Origin: Elusimicrobiota bacterium
GTDB taxonomy: Bacteria > Elusimicrobiota > Elusimicrobia > UBA1565 > UBA9628
Assembly (NCBI GenBank): GCA_016182905.1
Contig: JACPFR010000017.1
Location: 1 to 45,794, forward strand
Direction: 5' to 3'
DNA length: 45,794 nucleotides
The notes under the pieces are model-generated. The model had not been told where the DNA came from, did no database searches, and was given only the letters and a program-made list of their open reading frames with translations. Shown here piece after piece: positions 4,299 through 23,310 of this stretch; within the stretch, counting starts at the first letter, position 1, and each line of letters starts with the position of its first letter. The translations under genes and the position numbers were made by a program.

Positions 4299-4682
4299 TC
4301 AGCGCGCCTTGGGGAGGTCGTAGGGCGTTCCGGGGACGAGCGCCACGGGGGCGCCGGTCGAGAGCAGGACCGTGACCGAGCCGGAGGAGACCTCGATCGA
4401 GGAGACCGCGCGGGTGGAGACGGTGAACTTGAACGAGGAGCCCTCGGCCGCGGTCACGCGGGTCTTGCCGTGGCGGAACTCCGCGGCGCCGTAGACCATC
4501 GTCACCGTCGCGTCGGACAGGACGGGCGGCTTCGGGGACTCCGAGGTCGCGCGCACGACGTCGTTCCAGCCGGCGAGCTCCATCGTGCCGTCGAGCCTGG
4601 TCACGCACAGCGAGCGCGTGCAGGGCTTGGGCCCGGCGCAGGCGGCGAGAAGAACGAGGGCGGCGAGAAGGGCGCGGCGCAT
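4299..4682 (-). CDS. Small lipoprotein, FecR-like fold possible
   Basis: A 127-residue protein with a clear lipoprotein signal: MRRALLAALVLLAAC, lipobox LAAC with the modified cysteine at residue 15. The mature part is beta-rich, with lines such as TRVTAAEGSSFKF, SSIEVSSGSVTVLL and a final GTPYDLP. This recalls the FecR domain of secreted or anti-sigma proteins, in which a repeated 'charge/structure then value' pattern forms a beta helix. That assignment is tentative. The ATG at 4682 has TAAGAT 7 nt upstream on the minus strand, again suggesting a leaderless message. The stop codon is about 80 bases from the gmd start; the palindrome lies in that gap. Likely anchored in the inner or outer membrane facing the periplasm. 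Confidence 0.7.
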   Translation of the reverse strand: MRRALLAALVLLAACAGPKPCTRSLCVTRLDGTMELAGWNDVVRATSESPKPPVLSDATVTMVYGAAEFRHGKTRVTAAEGSSFKFTVSTRAVSSIEVSSGSVTVLLSTGAPVALVPGTPYDLPKAR

Positions 4683-18828: not shown

Positions 18829-19299
18829 ATGGACGCCAAAGAGATCGAAGCGCTTCTGACCCCCCTCATCGAGCAGGAAGGCGGTGAATTGGTGGACCTG
18901 CAGTGGCGCATGGAAGGTCCGCAGTGGGTCCTGCGTCTGTTCCTGGACAAGCCGAACGGGATCACGCTCGACGACTGCGCGTACTTCTCGGACCGGGTCG
19001 GGGCGACGCTCGACGAGGGCGACAAGATCGCGCGCTCCTACGTGCTCGAGGTGTCGTCTCCCGGCCTCGACCGCGTGATCAAGAAGGACAAGGATTTCGA
19101 GCGCTTCGCGGGCAAACCCGTGAAGCTGCGTCTGAAGCTCCCGGAGAACGGCCAGCGCCGGTTCACCGGGGTCTTGAAGGGCCTGAACGAGGGCAAGGTC
19201 TCCGTCCAGGTGGAGAAGGACCTCAAGGCGTTCGCGCGCGAGAACATCGACGAGCTGCGTCTCGACGACTCCGCGGCGGTTGATTTTTCGGAGGATTGA
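18829..19299 (+). CDS. rimP: Ribosome maturation factor RimP
   Basis: Needed for assembly of the 30S subunit. The two-domain RimP layout is clear: N-terminal IEALLTPLIEQEGGELVDLQWR, the central DDCAYFSDRVGATLD and VLEVSSPGLDRVIKKDKDFERFAG (the SSPGLDRPL-type signature), then the Sm-like C-terminal domain (LRLKLPENGQRRFTGVLKG). Length is 156 aa. It follows an attenuated leader and precedes nusA by 4 bases, the common gene order. Confidence 0.97.
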   Translation: MDAKEIEALLTPLIEQEGGELVDLQWRMEGPQWVLRLFLDKPNGITLDDCAYFSDRVGATLDEGDKIARSYVLEVSSPGLDRVIKKDKDFERFAGKPVKLRLKLPENGQRRFTGVLKGLNEGKVSVQVEKDLKAFARENIDELRLDDSAAVDFSED

Positions 19300-19303
19300 T
19301 CTT

Positions 19304-20554
19304 ATGAGCAAATCCGAGCTGATGACGGCGTTGGAGCAGATCGCGCGTGAAAAGAACATCCCCGTGGACGAGATCCTGTCCATGATCGAGGGCGCCGTCG
19401 TGTCCTCCCTGCGCAAGCACGTCGGCAAGAACGCCGACATCCGCGCCTCCATCGACCGCGAGAGCGGCGTCTTCTCCGCCGTCGTGGCGAAGAAGGTCGT
19501 CGACGAGGTCGCGGACCCGGAGCTCGAGCTCACCGAGGCCGACGCCCAGAAGATCAAGAAGGGCGCCAAGGTCGGCGACGAGCTGATCTATCCCGCTCCC
19601 GCCGCCGACTTCGCCCGCATCGCCGCGCAGACCGCCAAGCAGGTTCTGACGCAGCGCGTGCGCGAGGTCGAGCGCGACAAGCTGTACGAGGAGTTCAAGC
19701 CGAAGGAGGGCGAGGTCGTCTCCGGCTCCGTCCACCGCTTCGTCGAGCGCAGCATCATCGTCGACCTCGGCAAGACCGAGGGCGTTTTGCCCCCGCGCGA
19801 GCAGATCCGCCGCGAGCGCTACAACATCGGCGGCAACGTGCGCGCCGTCATCCTGCGCGTGGACAAGTCCCAGCGCGGCCCCGCGGTCGTCCTCTCCCGC
19901 GCCGCCGATCTTTTCCTCCAGAGGCTGATGGAGATGGAAGTCCCCGAGATCGCGGACAAGACCGTCGAGATCGTGCGCATCGTGCGCGACCCCGGCTTCC
20001 GCGCCAAGGTGATCGTGAAGTCCAACGACCCTCGCGTGGACGCGATCGGCTCGTGCGTCGGTCTGCGCGGCTCGCGCATCCGCTCGATCATGAACGAGGT
20101 CGCCGGCGAGCGCATCGACCTGATCGCCTTCGCCGAGGGCGTCGAGGAGTCCCTCGCCGCGGCCCTGGCCCCGGCCAAGGTCTCGTCGGTGCAGGTCATG
20201 GATCCCGAGAACCGCATCGCCGAGGTCCTCGTCGCCGAGGAGCAGCTCGCCCTGGCCATCGGCAAGGACGGGCAGAACGTGCGCCTCGCGCAGAAGCTCA
20301 CCGGCTGGACCCTCGAGGTCAAGGCCGAGCCGGCGAAGCCCTCTAAACGCATCAGCAGCGAAGGTGCTGATGCGTCCCTGGCCACGCTCGAGGGCGTCGG
20401 CCCCAAGACGCTCGAGATCCTGGTCAAGGCCGGCATCACCGACGCGGCGAAGCTCGCCGCGGCCTCGGCCGAGGACCTGAAAACGGCCGGCATCGGCGAG
20501 AAGACCGCGGCCAAGATCATCGCGAACGCCAAGGCGGCGCTCGAGAAGGCGTAG
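19304..20554 (+). CDS. nusA: Transcription termination/antitermination factor NusA
   Basis: RNA polymerase-associated factor that modulates pausing, intrinsic termination and antitermination. Domains in order: NTD (1-120, EKNIPVDEILSMIEGAVVSSL), S1 (about 130-200, GEVVSGSVHRFVERSIIVDLG), KH1 and KH2 (about 210-345, with GSCVGLRGSRI and AIGKDGQNVRLA), then a C-terminal helix-hairpin-helix region (LEGVGPKTLEILVKAGI). The ATG at 19304 is chosen over an upstream in-frame start because of the GGAGG at 19289. Length is 416 aa. A 10-bp hairpin sequence sits in the linker at residues 349-357. Possible autoregulation through the rimP leader. Confidence 0.97.
   Translation: MSKSELMTALEQIAREKNIPVDEILSMIEGAVVSSLRKHVGKNADIRASIDRESGVFSAVVAKKVVDEVADPELELTEADAQKIKKGAKVGDELIYPAPAADFARIAAQTAKQVLTQRVREVERDKLYEEFKPKEGEVVSGSVHRFVERSIIVDLGKTEGVLPPREQIRRERYNIGGNVRAVILRVDKSQRGPAVVLSRAADLFLQRLMEMEVPEIADKTVEIVRIVRDPGFRAKVIVKSNDPRVDAIGSCVGLRGSRIRSIMNEVAGERIDLIAFAEGVEESLAAALAPAKVSSVQVMDPENRIAEVLVAEEQLALAIGKDGQNVRLAQKLTGWTLEVKAEPAKPSKRISSEGADASLATLEGVGPKTLEILVKAGITDAAKLAAASAEDLKTAGIGEKTAAKIIANAKAALEKA
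20348..20374 (+). repeat. Inverted repeat inside the nusA linker
   Basis: CGCATCAGCA (20348-20357) and TGCTGATGCG (20365-20374) are perfect 10-bp inverted copies 7 nt apart. They encode RISSEGADAS between KH2 and the C-terminal HhH region. Unexpected in coding DNA; it could be a small inserted element that kept the frame. Confidence 0.55.
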
Positions 20555-20558
20555 ACCG

Positions 20559-20719
20559 AGGAGACTGAGCAATTAATGGCGTGGCCCTCGGAGGCTTGCA
20601 ATTGACCGATGGCGTTGTTGCTCCTCGCTCAGATAGCTACAGCTATCCTCGCTCGTCGCGCCTAGCCAGCAGCCAAACCCGTTCGACCGAGGGCTACGCC
20701 ATTAATTGCTCAGTCTCCT
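20559..20719. mobile_element. 161-bp MITE-like element between nusA and infB
   Basis: Terminal inverted repeats of 33 bp (20559-20591 and 20687-20719) match at 32 positions, the one exception being G-U compatible. The ends read AGGAGACTGAGCAATTAATG. The interior (20592-20686) has no coding capacity and holds another small inverted repeat, GATAGCT-AC-AGCTATC. Its lower GC content and sharp boundaries fit a non-autonomous transposable element, though no clear target duplication is seen. It splits an operon that is usually continuous. It could also fold as a long RNA hairpin. Confidence 0.7.
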
Positions 20720-20748
20720 AGGTCCTGCCTAGGTCCCCGCCAATTTGC

Positions 20749-20754
20749 TATAAT
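20749..20754 (+). promoter_or_regulatory. Extended -10 (TGC-TATAAT) of infB
   Basis: A perfect TATAAT preceded by TGC lies 9 nt before the infB ATG, right after the MITE-like element and a direct repeat of CCTAGGTCC (20718-20735). It would restore transcription of infB onward if the element blocks read-through. The leader would be only 2-4 nt. Confidence 0.6.
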
Positions 20755-20763
20755 CGTCCGGTA

Positions 20764-23310
20764 ATGGAAAAGAAGACCACGAAAAAGACTCCGGCGAAAA
20801 AGCCCGCCGCCGCGAAGCCCGCGGCCGCCAAGGCCAAGGCCGCCCCGAAGAAAGCCGCCGCCAAGGGCACGGCCGCCGAAGTCCGCACGACGCAGGAAGA
20901 GGGCTCGATCGCGCCTCCCACCGCCAACCTGGTCTCCGCGTTCGCGATGTTCAAGAAGCGCAACGTCTCCACCGCCGGACCGACGGTGACGCGCCTCGCC
21001 GCCGGCGCCGCGCTTCCGAAGCCGCCCGCTCCGAAGCCGGTCGTTCCGCCCGCGCCCGCCGCCGCGGCGGCGGCTCCGGCCCCCGCTGCGCCGCCCTCGA
21101 TCCCGACCGCGCCCGTCGCGAAGCCGCCGGTTCCCGGCGCCCCGGTCACGATCAAGCAGCCCGCCGTCCCCGGCGCCTTGCCGCCGAAGCCGGTCCAGCC
21201 CGCCGCCGGCGCTCCGGCCGCGCCCGTCGCGCCCAAGCCCGCCGTTCCCGGGGCTCCCGTGCCGCCCGCGCAGAAGCCGCCGACGACCGGCGCGCTCCCG
21301 CCCATGCCGCCGAAGCCCGGCACCTCCGGTCCGCAGAAGCCGGTCATCCTGCGCCCCGGCGCAATCACGATCCGCCCGCAGATGACGCCGCGTCCCGGCG
21401 CCCCGCGCCCTCCGATGCCCGGCCAGCGCCCCGGCCAGCACCGCCCGGGCCAGGGAGGCGGTCACCGCCCCCAGCAGCAGAACCGGCCTGCCGCGCCCTC
21501 GGTGAAGCCCCTCGAGCCCGGCCAGAAGCCCGCGCTCAAGAAGATCAAGGTGTCCTCCATGATCACCGTCCGCGAGCTCTCCGAGAAGATGGAGATCAAG
21601 ACGAACGACGTCATCAAGAAGCTGATGGGCCTGGGCATCTTCGCCACGATCAACCAGCGTCTCGACACCGAGGCCGCGCAGGTCGTCGCCTCCGACTTCG
21701 GCTACGAGCTCGAGGTCGTCGCGATGTACAAAGAAGAGGAGCTCGCGGTCGTCAAGGCCGAGAAGGAAGACCCCGCCAAGCTCAAGAGCCGCCCCCCCGT
21801 GATCACCATCATGGGCCACGTCGACCACGGCAAGACTTCGCTGCTCGACGCGATCCGCTCGGCGAAGGTCGCCGAGGGCGAGTCCGGCGGCATCACGCAG
21901 CACATCGGCGCCTATAAGGTCCACATCGACAAGGGCGACATCGTCTTCCTCGACACGCCCGGCCACGAGGCCTTCACCGCCATGCGCGCGCGCGGCGCCA
22001 AGGTCACCGACATCGTCGTCATCGTCGTCTCGGCCACCGACGGCATCATGCCGCAGACGATCGAGGCCATCGACCACGCGAAGGCGGCCGGCGTGCCGAT
22101 CGTCGTCGCGGTCAACAAGATCGACCTCCCCGGCGCCAACCCGCAGAAGATCCGCCAGGACCTCTCCGGCCACGGCCTGCAGCCCGAGGAGTGGGGCGGC
22201 AAGAACATCTTCGTCGACGTCTCCGCGAAGAAGCGCCTCAACCTCGACAAGTTGTTGGAAAGCTTGGCTCTTCAAGCGGAAATCCTCGAGCTCAAGGCCA
22301 ACCCGGACCGCCCCGCCTACGGCACGGTCCTCGAGGCCAAGATGGACCCGAAGCGCGGCGCCGTCTCTACCGTGCTCGTCCAGGCCGGCACGCTCAAGCT
22401 CGGCGACGCGTTCGTCGCGGGCCTGGCGCACGGCAAGATCAAGGCCCTCGTCGACGACAACGGCAGGCGCATCGAGTCCGCCGGCCCCGCGACCCCCGTC
22501 GAGATCCTCGGCATCATGGGCACGCCGCAGGCCGGCGACGCGTTCACCGTCGTCGAGAACGAGAAGGCCGCGCGCGACATCGCCGAGAAGCGCCGCCTGA
22601 TCCACCGCGAGCAGACGATGGCCCACCAGAAGCACATGACGCTCGTGGGCCTGCGCTCCGCGATGAGCACCGGCGCGTCGAAGGCCAAGGACCTCAACAT
22701 CCTCCTCAAGGCCGACGTGCAGGGCTCCCTGCAGGCGCTGCGCGACTCGCTCGAGGGCCTCTCCACGACCGAGTGCCGCGTGCGCATCATCCACGGCGCC
22801 ATCGGCAACGCCAACGAGTCCGACATCCTGCTCGCCTCCGCCTCCGACGCCGTCACCTTGCTCTTCAACGCCGAGGTCGAGCCGCGCGCGGCCGAGCTCG
22901 CCGAGCGCGAGGGCGTCGAGGTCCGCAAGTACGCGGTCATCTACGACCTCATCGAGGACGTGAAGGCGGCCCTCGAGGGCCTGCTCGCGCCCGAGATCGT
23001 CGACGTCGTCGTCGGCAAGGGCGAGGTCAAGGCGCTGTTCAAGGTCAAGACCGGCGTCATCGCCGGCTCCGCGATCCGCGACGGCAAGGCCACCCGCGGC
23101 GGGCATATCCGCGTGCTCCGCGACGGCAAGACGCTCCACACCGGCAAGGTCACCACGCTGCGCCACTTCAAGGACGACGTCAAGGAGATCGAGAAGGGCC
23201 AGGAGTGCGGCATCGGCACCGAGGGCTTCAACGACTTCGCGGTCGGCGACCTGCTCGAGTTCTTCGTCAAGGAATCGCGCACGCGGCGTCTGTCCCAGTC
23301 GCCTCGGTAG
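20764..23310 (+). CDS. infB: Translation initiation factor IF-2
   Basis: GTPase that positions initiator tRNA and joins the ribosomal subunits. The N-terminal 250 residues are low complexity, first Lys/Ala then Pro/Ala, and contain no folded domain. An IF2N domain follows (about 260-310, [24 protein letters not shown]), then the GTPase domain with G1 GHVDHGKT (351-358), G3 DTPGH and G4 NKID, then domains II to IV. Length is 848 aa. It begins 9 nt after a TATAAT, with no Shine-Dalgarno, and is followed by rbfA after 14 bases. Confidence 0.97.

Follow-up and report, generated by a model that had tools for sequence, protein, structure and literature searches.

Among the described systems of short mobile DNA in bacteria, MITEs such as BOX, RUP and Correia-type elements are, as the accessible part of the source presents them, short and non-coding, possess inverted ends and a target duplication and reside in intergenic DNA (PMC10969869). 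For the IS1182 family of insertion sequences the accessible text of two papers reports palindromic targets of some members, and one member, IS1272, is reported there to target hairpins, terminators included, and to replace them without target duplication (PMC5678879, PMC4923244). A third kind of repeat are the REP/REPIN palindromes, imperfect hairpins that, according to the portion of the source at hand, occur repeatedly, in high copy in some genomes and between genes (PMC3733652).

Here, we describe an insertion between nusA and infB of an uncultured Elusimicrobiota bacterium (Table 1). The window, i.e. the whole stretch of DNA analysed (45,794 nucleotides), is the complete contig C17 of a genome with 63 contigs and 97% completeness. 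The feature is very probably a non-autonomous element (MITE) of 157 bp, which an IS1182-family transposase would have inserted in trans into a CTAG just 3' of the nusA stop codon, with duplication of this CTAG. It shares with the bacterial MITEs all the properties listed above but differs from them, as far as they are described in the accessible part of the source (PMC10969869), in the cargo of its family, a hairpin that extends across the phylum, has nearly invariant mismatch boxes and occurs inside elements whose ends are of at least three kinds. A description of these Elusimicrobia elements was not found in the openly accessible literature and, because a conserved mismatch hairpin is combined with changing tips, the family looks new as a variant.

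Table 1. Features of the nusA–infB region (positions in the window; a dot marks features without strand)
Feature	Position	Strand	Basis
nusA	19280..20554	+	TIGR01953, 372 bits; Pfam NusA_N, KH_5; stop TAG 20552-20554
Left target copy CGAG, 4 bp, one change compared with CTAG	20557..20560	.	Alignment to G003 and G007 empty sites
Non-autonomous element, 157 bp	20561..20717	.	Alignment; missing at the site in 26/26 readable relatives
Left terminal inverted repeat; tip GAGACTGAGCAATTA = 20561-20575	20561..20591	+	Tip against resident IS1182 right end, 14/15
Hairpin module, 49 nt; TC/CT mismatch boxes on +, tandem G.A boxes on -	20617..20665	+	Covariance model match 20593-20688, 96.9 bits
Right terminal inverted repeat; tip = 20703-20717	20687..20717	-	Inverted-arm search and end pattern
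Right target copy CTAG	20718..20721	.	Alignment to empty sites
Second CCTAGGTCC; ancestral	20728..20736	.	Equivalent CTAGGCCC in insert-less G003 and G007
Extended -10 TGCTATAAT of infB; ancestral	20746..20754	+	TGNTATNAT in nusA-infB gap of family genomes
infB (IF-2)	20764..23310	+	TIGR00487, 753 bits

The preliminary description had recognized a MITE-like insertion of 161 bp with inverted repeats around 95 bp, and this outline is borne out. The inverted arms (20554-20591 and 20687-20724) comprise 38 nt with 95% complementarity and are separated by 95 nt; the outermost base pairs are in part formed by the target instead of the element. For the 22-nt end pattern two occurrences were counted in the window, compared with 0.00 expected from 100 shuffles. 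No open reading frame of at least 80 amino acids from the list of reading frames is contained within the 157 bp, which are touched only by frames entering from outside, and neither a T-tail nor a U-tract of an intrinsic terminator was found on the element.

The decisive evidence comes from the relatives. NusA was found in 31 of the 38 genomes searched (own genome included), and the DNA following nusA was readable for 26 of 37 relatives; among the remaining 11, seven gave no NusA hit and four had an unparsed, cut or unfetched junction. In all 26 readable relatives the insert is absent at this site. The sister genome G003, with 95% NusA identity, reads TAG-GC-CTAG-GCCCC at its empty site, where the window has TAG-AC-CGAG-(157 bp)-CTAG-GTCCT, and G007 has an empty site too. 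Since the flanks align with the empty site of G003 on both sides, the gain of 161 bp consists of the 157-bp element and a 4-bp duplicate of CTAG, whose left copy, to judge from this alignment, later decayed by one base to CGAG. Reconstruction from the window yields a palindromic target, GACCTAGGTC. CTAG itself is scarce: the window contains 11, where base composition predicts 133 and a Markov estimate 41.

The same comparison bears on a structured regulatory RNA of the nusA–infB operon, be it an attenuator, a processing site or an autoregulatory leader. The insert folds very stably (z = -8.0) in an operon known for regulation, but the empty sites, that of G003 among them, strongly disfavour this explanation, as do the occurrence of the same body beside unrelated genes and an Rfam search of the element that gave no match above the curated threshold; we consider it extremely improbable. 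A search across the own genome yielded a single full copy. With respect to a regulatory RNA, a lack of further copies had been named as one half of an argument for it and conservation of the structure between nusA and infB as the other; the first half holds, but the second is contradicted by the empty sites. Several copies per genome are usual for MITEs though not obligatory, and relatives of the element are present in sister genomes. Because only one full copy exists in the own genome, the case for mobility there builds on the empty site and on the shared body.

Two sequences to the right of the element had been interpreted as possible consequences of the insertion, an extended -10 as potential promoter rescue of infB and a direct repeat as possible scar. 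Both sequences are real (the CCTAGGTCC pair lies at 20717-20725 and 20728-20736, one base away from the place first given), but the nusA–infB gap contains TGNTATNAT in all 20 readable genomes of the family, namely the own genome and 19 that lack an insert, and the second CCTAGG is likewise found in relatives that lack the insert. Both are thus older than the insertion, so the -10 did not arise as a rescue nor the repeat as a scar, and both proposals are rejected. From the extended -10 to the ATG of infB there are only ~9 nt (20746-20763) and therefore the infB mRNA may be leaderless or nearly so. With nusA left intact and the older infB promoter located downstream, the element probably acts just as a long transcribed hairpin, which may weaken read-through from nusA to infB. 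The presence of such elements at gene ends is probably tolerated by the host.

A transposase with matching ends, as the preliminary description had asked for, resides in the same genome. Contig C16 carries an IS1182-family element with a 512-amino-acid transposase (NF033551, 378 bits, cut-off 270), whose gene is situated between two CTAGs 1840 bp apart. Ends of the same insertion sequence lie at several contig edges, and all ten ends found adjoin CTAG. Its right tip GAGCCTGAGCAATTA agrees with the tip of the window element in 14 of 15 bases; the left tip is a weaker match (11/15). If the 15-base alignment is fixed and base frequencies are equal, at least 14 matches have a chance of ~4e-8. Likeness to the IS1182 family thus comprises matching tips, the adjoining CTAG of both elements and a palindromic rebuilt target; the duplicated CTAG is a difference from IS1272, for which the accessible parts of the papers cited above report no duplication. 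From the agreement of tip and target, the resident IS1182 transposase may itself have been the mover. A genome search revealed no similarity of the element body to the interior of the insertion sequence, and the empty site of one IS1182 copy, sought in four sister genomes, gave no match. IS1182 ends adjoining CTAG are found also in three further genomes (G118, G117 and G018). In the typing of IS1182 ends a matched pair was clear at five loci (L254, L256, L257, L258, L273), whereas at others just single ends were clear. One IS1182 copy (L074) has a perfect inverted repeat of 66 nt inside both ends (2920-2985 and 4609-4674) that holds a GC-rich hairpin.

Related bodies are located beside unrelated genes in sister genomes, and their tips are of a different type. 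In three genomes of the same genus (G018, G001, G015) elements with the inner arm GCGTGGCCCTCGG and hairpins start with CTAG-GAGYGTGTCCGAGTAAT or a near form. These tips agree with the IS1182 ends of two other genomes (G051, G052) in 12-14 of 15 bases, whereas the window tip reaches only 9-10 of 15 against the same ends. The body, on the other hand, is shared: the window element and L047 of G018 have the same one-module layout with 84% identity over 148 nt, and just inside the tip 19 of 20 arm bases are alike. The own IS1182 end of G018 does not match the tips of the G018 elements (7/15). As the same body carries tips of two IS1182 subtypes, it seems to keep its cargo while the tips change, and the 15-bp tips would follow whichever transposase is available. 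From these comparisons we read the pattern as an exchange of tips on one body, with gradual change as the alternative.

The named relatives with the same inner sequence are all MAGs of Elusimicrobia (11 stretches). In longer elements a small central hairpin is flanked by two inner hairpins of opposite orientation, and the window element is a one-module derivative of such larger two-hairpin elements. With E <= 0.001, a covariance model of the hairpin had hits in 62 of 147 genomes of the class, representing 34 of 60 genera; at the level of the phylum, with E <= 1e-4, hits came from 85 of the 294 genomes sampled, representing 41 of 90 genera. Several genomes have at least 28 scored places, the own genome has one. 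From 80 regions fetched, 69 elements were parsed after dropping regions shorter than 2400 bases, L243 (no outer repeat) and L250 (span too short). The outer ends of these 69 vary by genome. Identical 3-bp flanks, mostly TAA or TTA, are found in 43 of the 54 elements with GG...CC ends (mean 20.5 and maximum 32 in 2000 shuffles), while CTAG-type flanks occur in 11 elements, in seven of them with CTAG in both copies; four elements fit neither scheme. As the flanks are of the TNA type in some elements and of the CTAG type in others, the hairpin is carried by elements with different target rules. Elements without body, i.e. solo or back-to-back ends at gene boundaries, were seen at four places (L126, L128, L129, G020:C22:40089-40136) and are probably remnants after loss of the interior. 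At L052 a run of N lies ~200 bases beyond the element, representing a masked stretch or a gap.

At E <= 1e-40 no IS1182 hit was obtained in five genomes rich in the module (G019, G020, G030, G033, G042). Because these are the richest genomes, the family as a whole cannot owe its mobility to IS1182, and other transposases must serve there or were lost. The searches yielded no autonomous element carrying the hairpin module. An autonomous partner of the TNA-type elements, sought with one tip type in five genomes, was not found either; close pairs of ends were ~50-330 bp apart and some ends remained unpaired. In viral contigs the module had no exact match to one pattern.

Another candidate mover is a RAYT-type Y1 (HUH) transposase recognizing the inner hairpin of a REP/REPIN-like element. 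The module is indeed an imperfect hairpin with G.A mismatches, and Y1 transposase domains occur in eight of nine genomes tested, with five domains in the own genome. Y1 transposition is not known to produce a target duplication, but CTAG is duplicated at the window site and the TNA duplications match in the above majority of GG...CC-ended relatives, far beyond shuffled flanks; moreover, G042 with its at least 28 module hits gave no Y1 hit at E <= 1e-5. The combination of a Y1 partner with undisturbed target length was thus not found, and this explanation appears very unlikely. As far as the accessible part of the source (PMC3733652) allows comparison, the Elusimicrobia elements also differ from REP/REPIN palindromes by long outer inverted repeats together with target duplications, and a Y1 link, absent in G042 at that threshold, is not established for them. 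The five Y1 genes of the own genome (PF01797) are distributed over contigs C16, C12 and C25, the last of which holds three.

The hairpin module itself was analysed in 91 distinct 61-mers from 116 loci, which are not independent events. Since the pattern that gathered this set contained the TC boxes, with up to 10 substitutions allowed, conservation of the boxes is to some extent a product of the selection, which does not hold for the complementary changes at (7,38), (10,35) and (11,34). Of the 91 sequences, 87 have a Watson-Crick pair at (7,38) (42 GC, 39 CG, 6 AT), where shuffling gave 39.1 on average and 55 at most, and the pairs (10,35), (11,34), (18,27) and (19,26) covary likewise. Interspersed with these pairs are TC/CT mismatches that correspond to tandem G.A on the opposite strand. 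The two outer boxes keep them in 87-89 of 91 sequences, and the third box is less strict (87 and 54 of 91). When RNA parameters are applied, the window module reaches -21.0 kcal/mol on its GA strand and -12.4 kcal/mol on its TC strand; DNA parameters give the GA strand little folding advantage. At least one module is present in 67 of the 69 elements, the other two lacking it by the stricter pattern. The GA strand reads inward from the nearer end in all modules except that of L207, an orientation that the inverted-repeat nature of the elements would likewise produce. In the window the module has the reverse orientation, which would fit a hairpin that had inverted before one module was lost from the element.

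In 37 of the 69 elements a predicted stop codon is found no more than 25 nt from an element end (in eight this holds for both ends), compared with 41 of 1380 random flank points. As gene calls were crude and the control points could fall outside intergenic DNA, some of this proximity reflects avoidance of coding sequence. It may be argued that elements are retained at gene ends as host terminators or 3'-end stabilizers, beyond mere tolerance. Both the proximity to stops and the better folding of the GA strand as RNA speak for such a role, but the limits of the control apply here too, element ends supply stop codons themselves, the GA strand of the window element is antisense to nusA and a U-tract is lacking; we regard this role as rather unlikely. 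A broader reading is put forward tentatively as one possibility: a modular family extending through the phylum, whose cargo hairpin with three tandem G.A boxes between covarying pairs may be selected as single-stranded RNA or DNA, is placed at 3' ends of genes and would survive by swapping its 15-bp carrier tips to ride the transposase present (IS1182 with CTAG, another one with TNA).

The insertion between nusA and infB is itself ordinary mobile DNA, and its significance would lie in the cargo. In this hairpin mismatches are kept while the pairs covary; it is common to a phylum with few cultured members and travels on elements with different tips and targets. The family makes it possible to test directly whether a MITE body can change its transposase and whether transcript ends are shaped by tandem G.A hairpins located where genes end.
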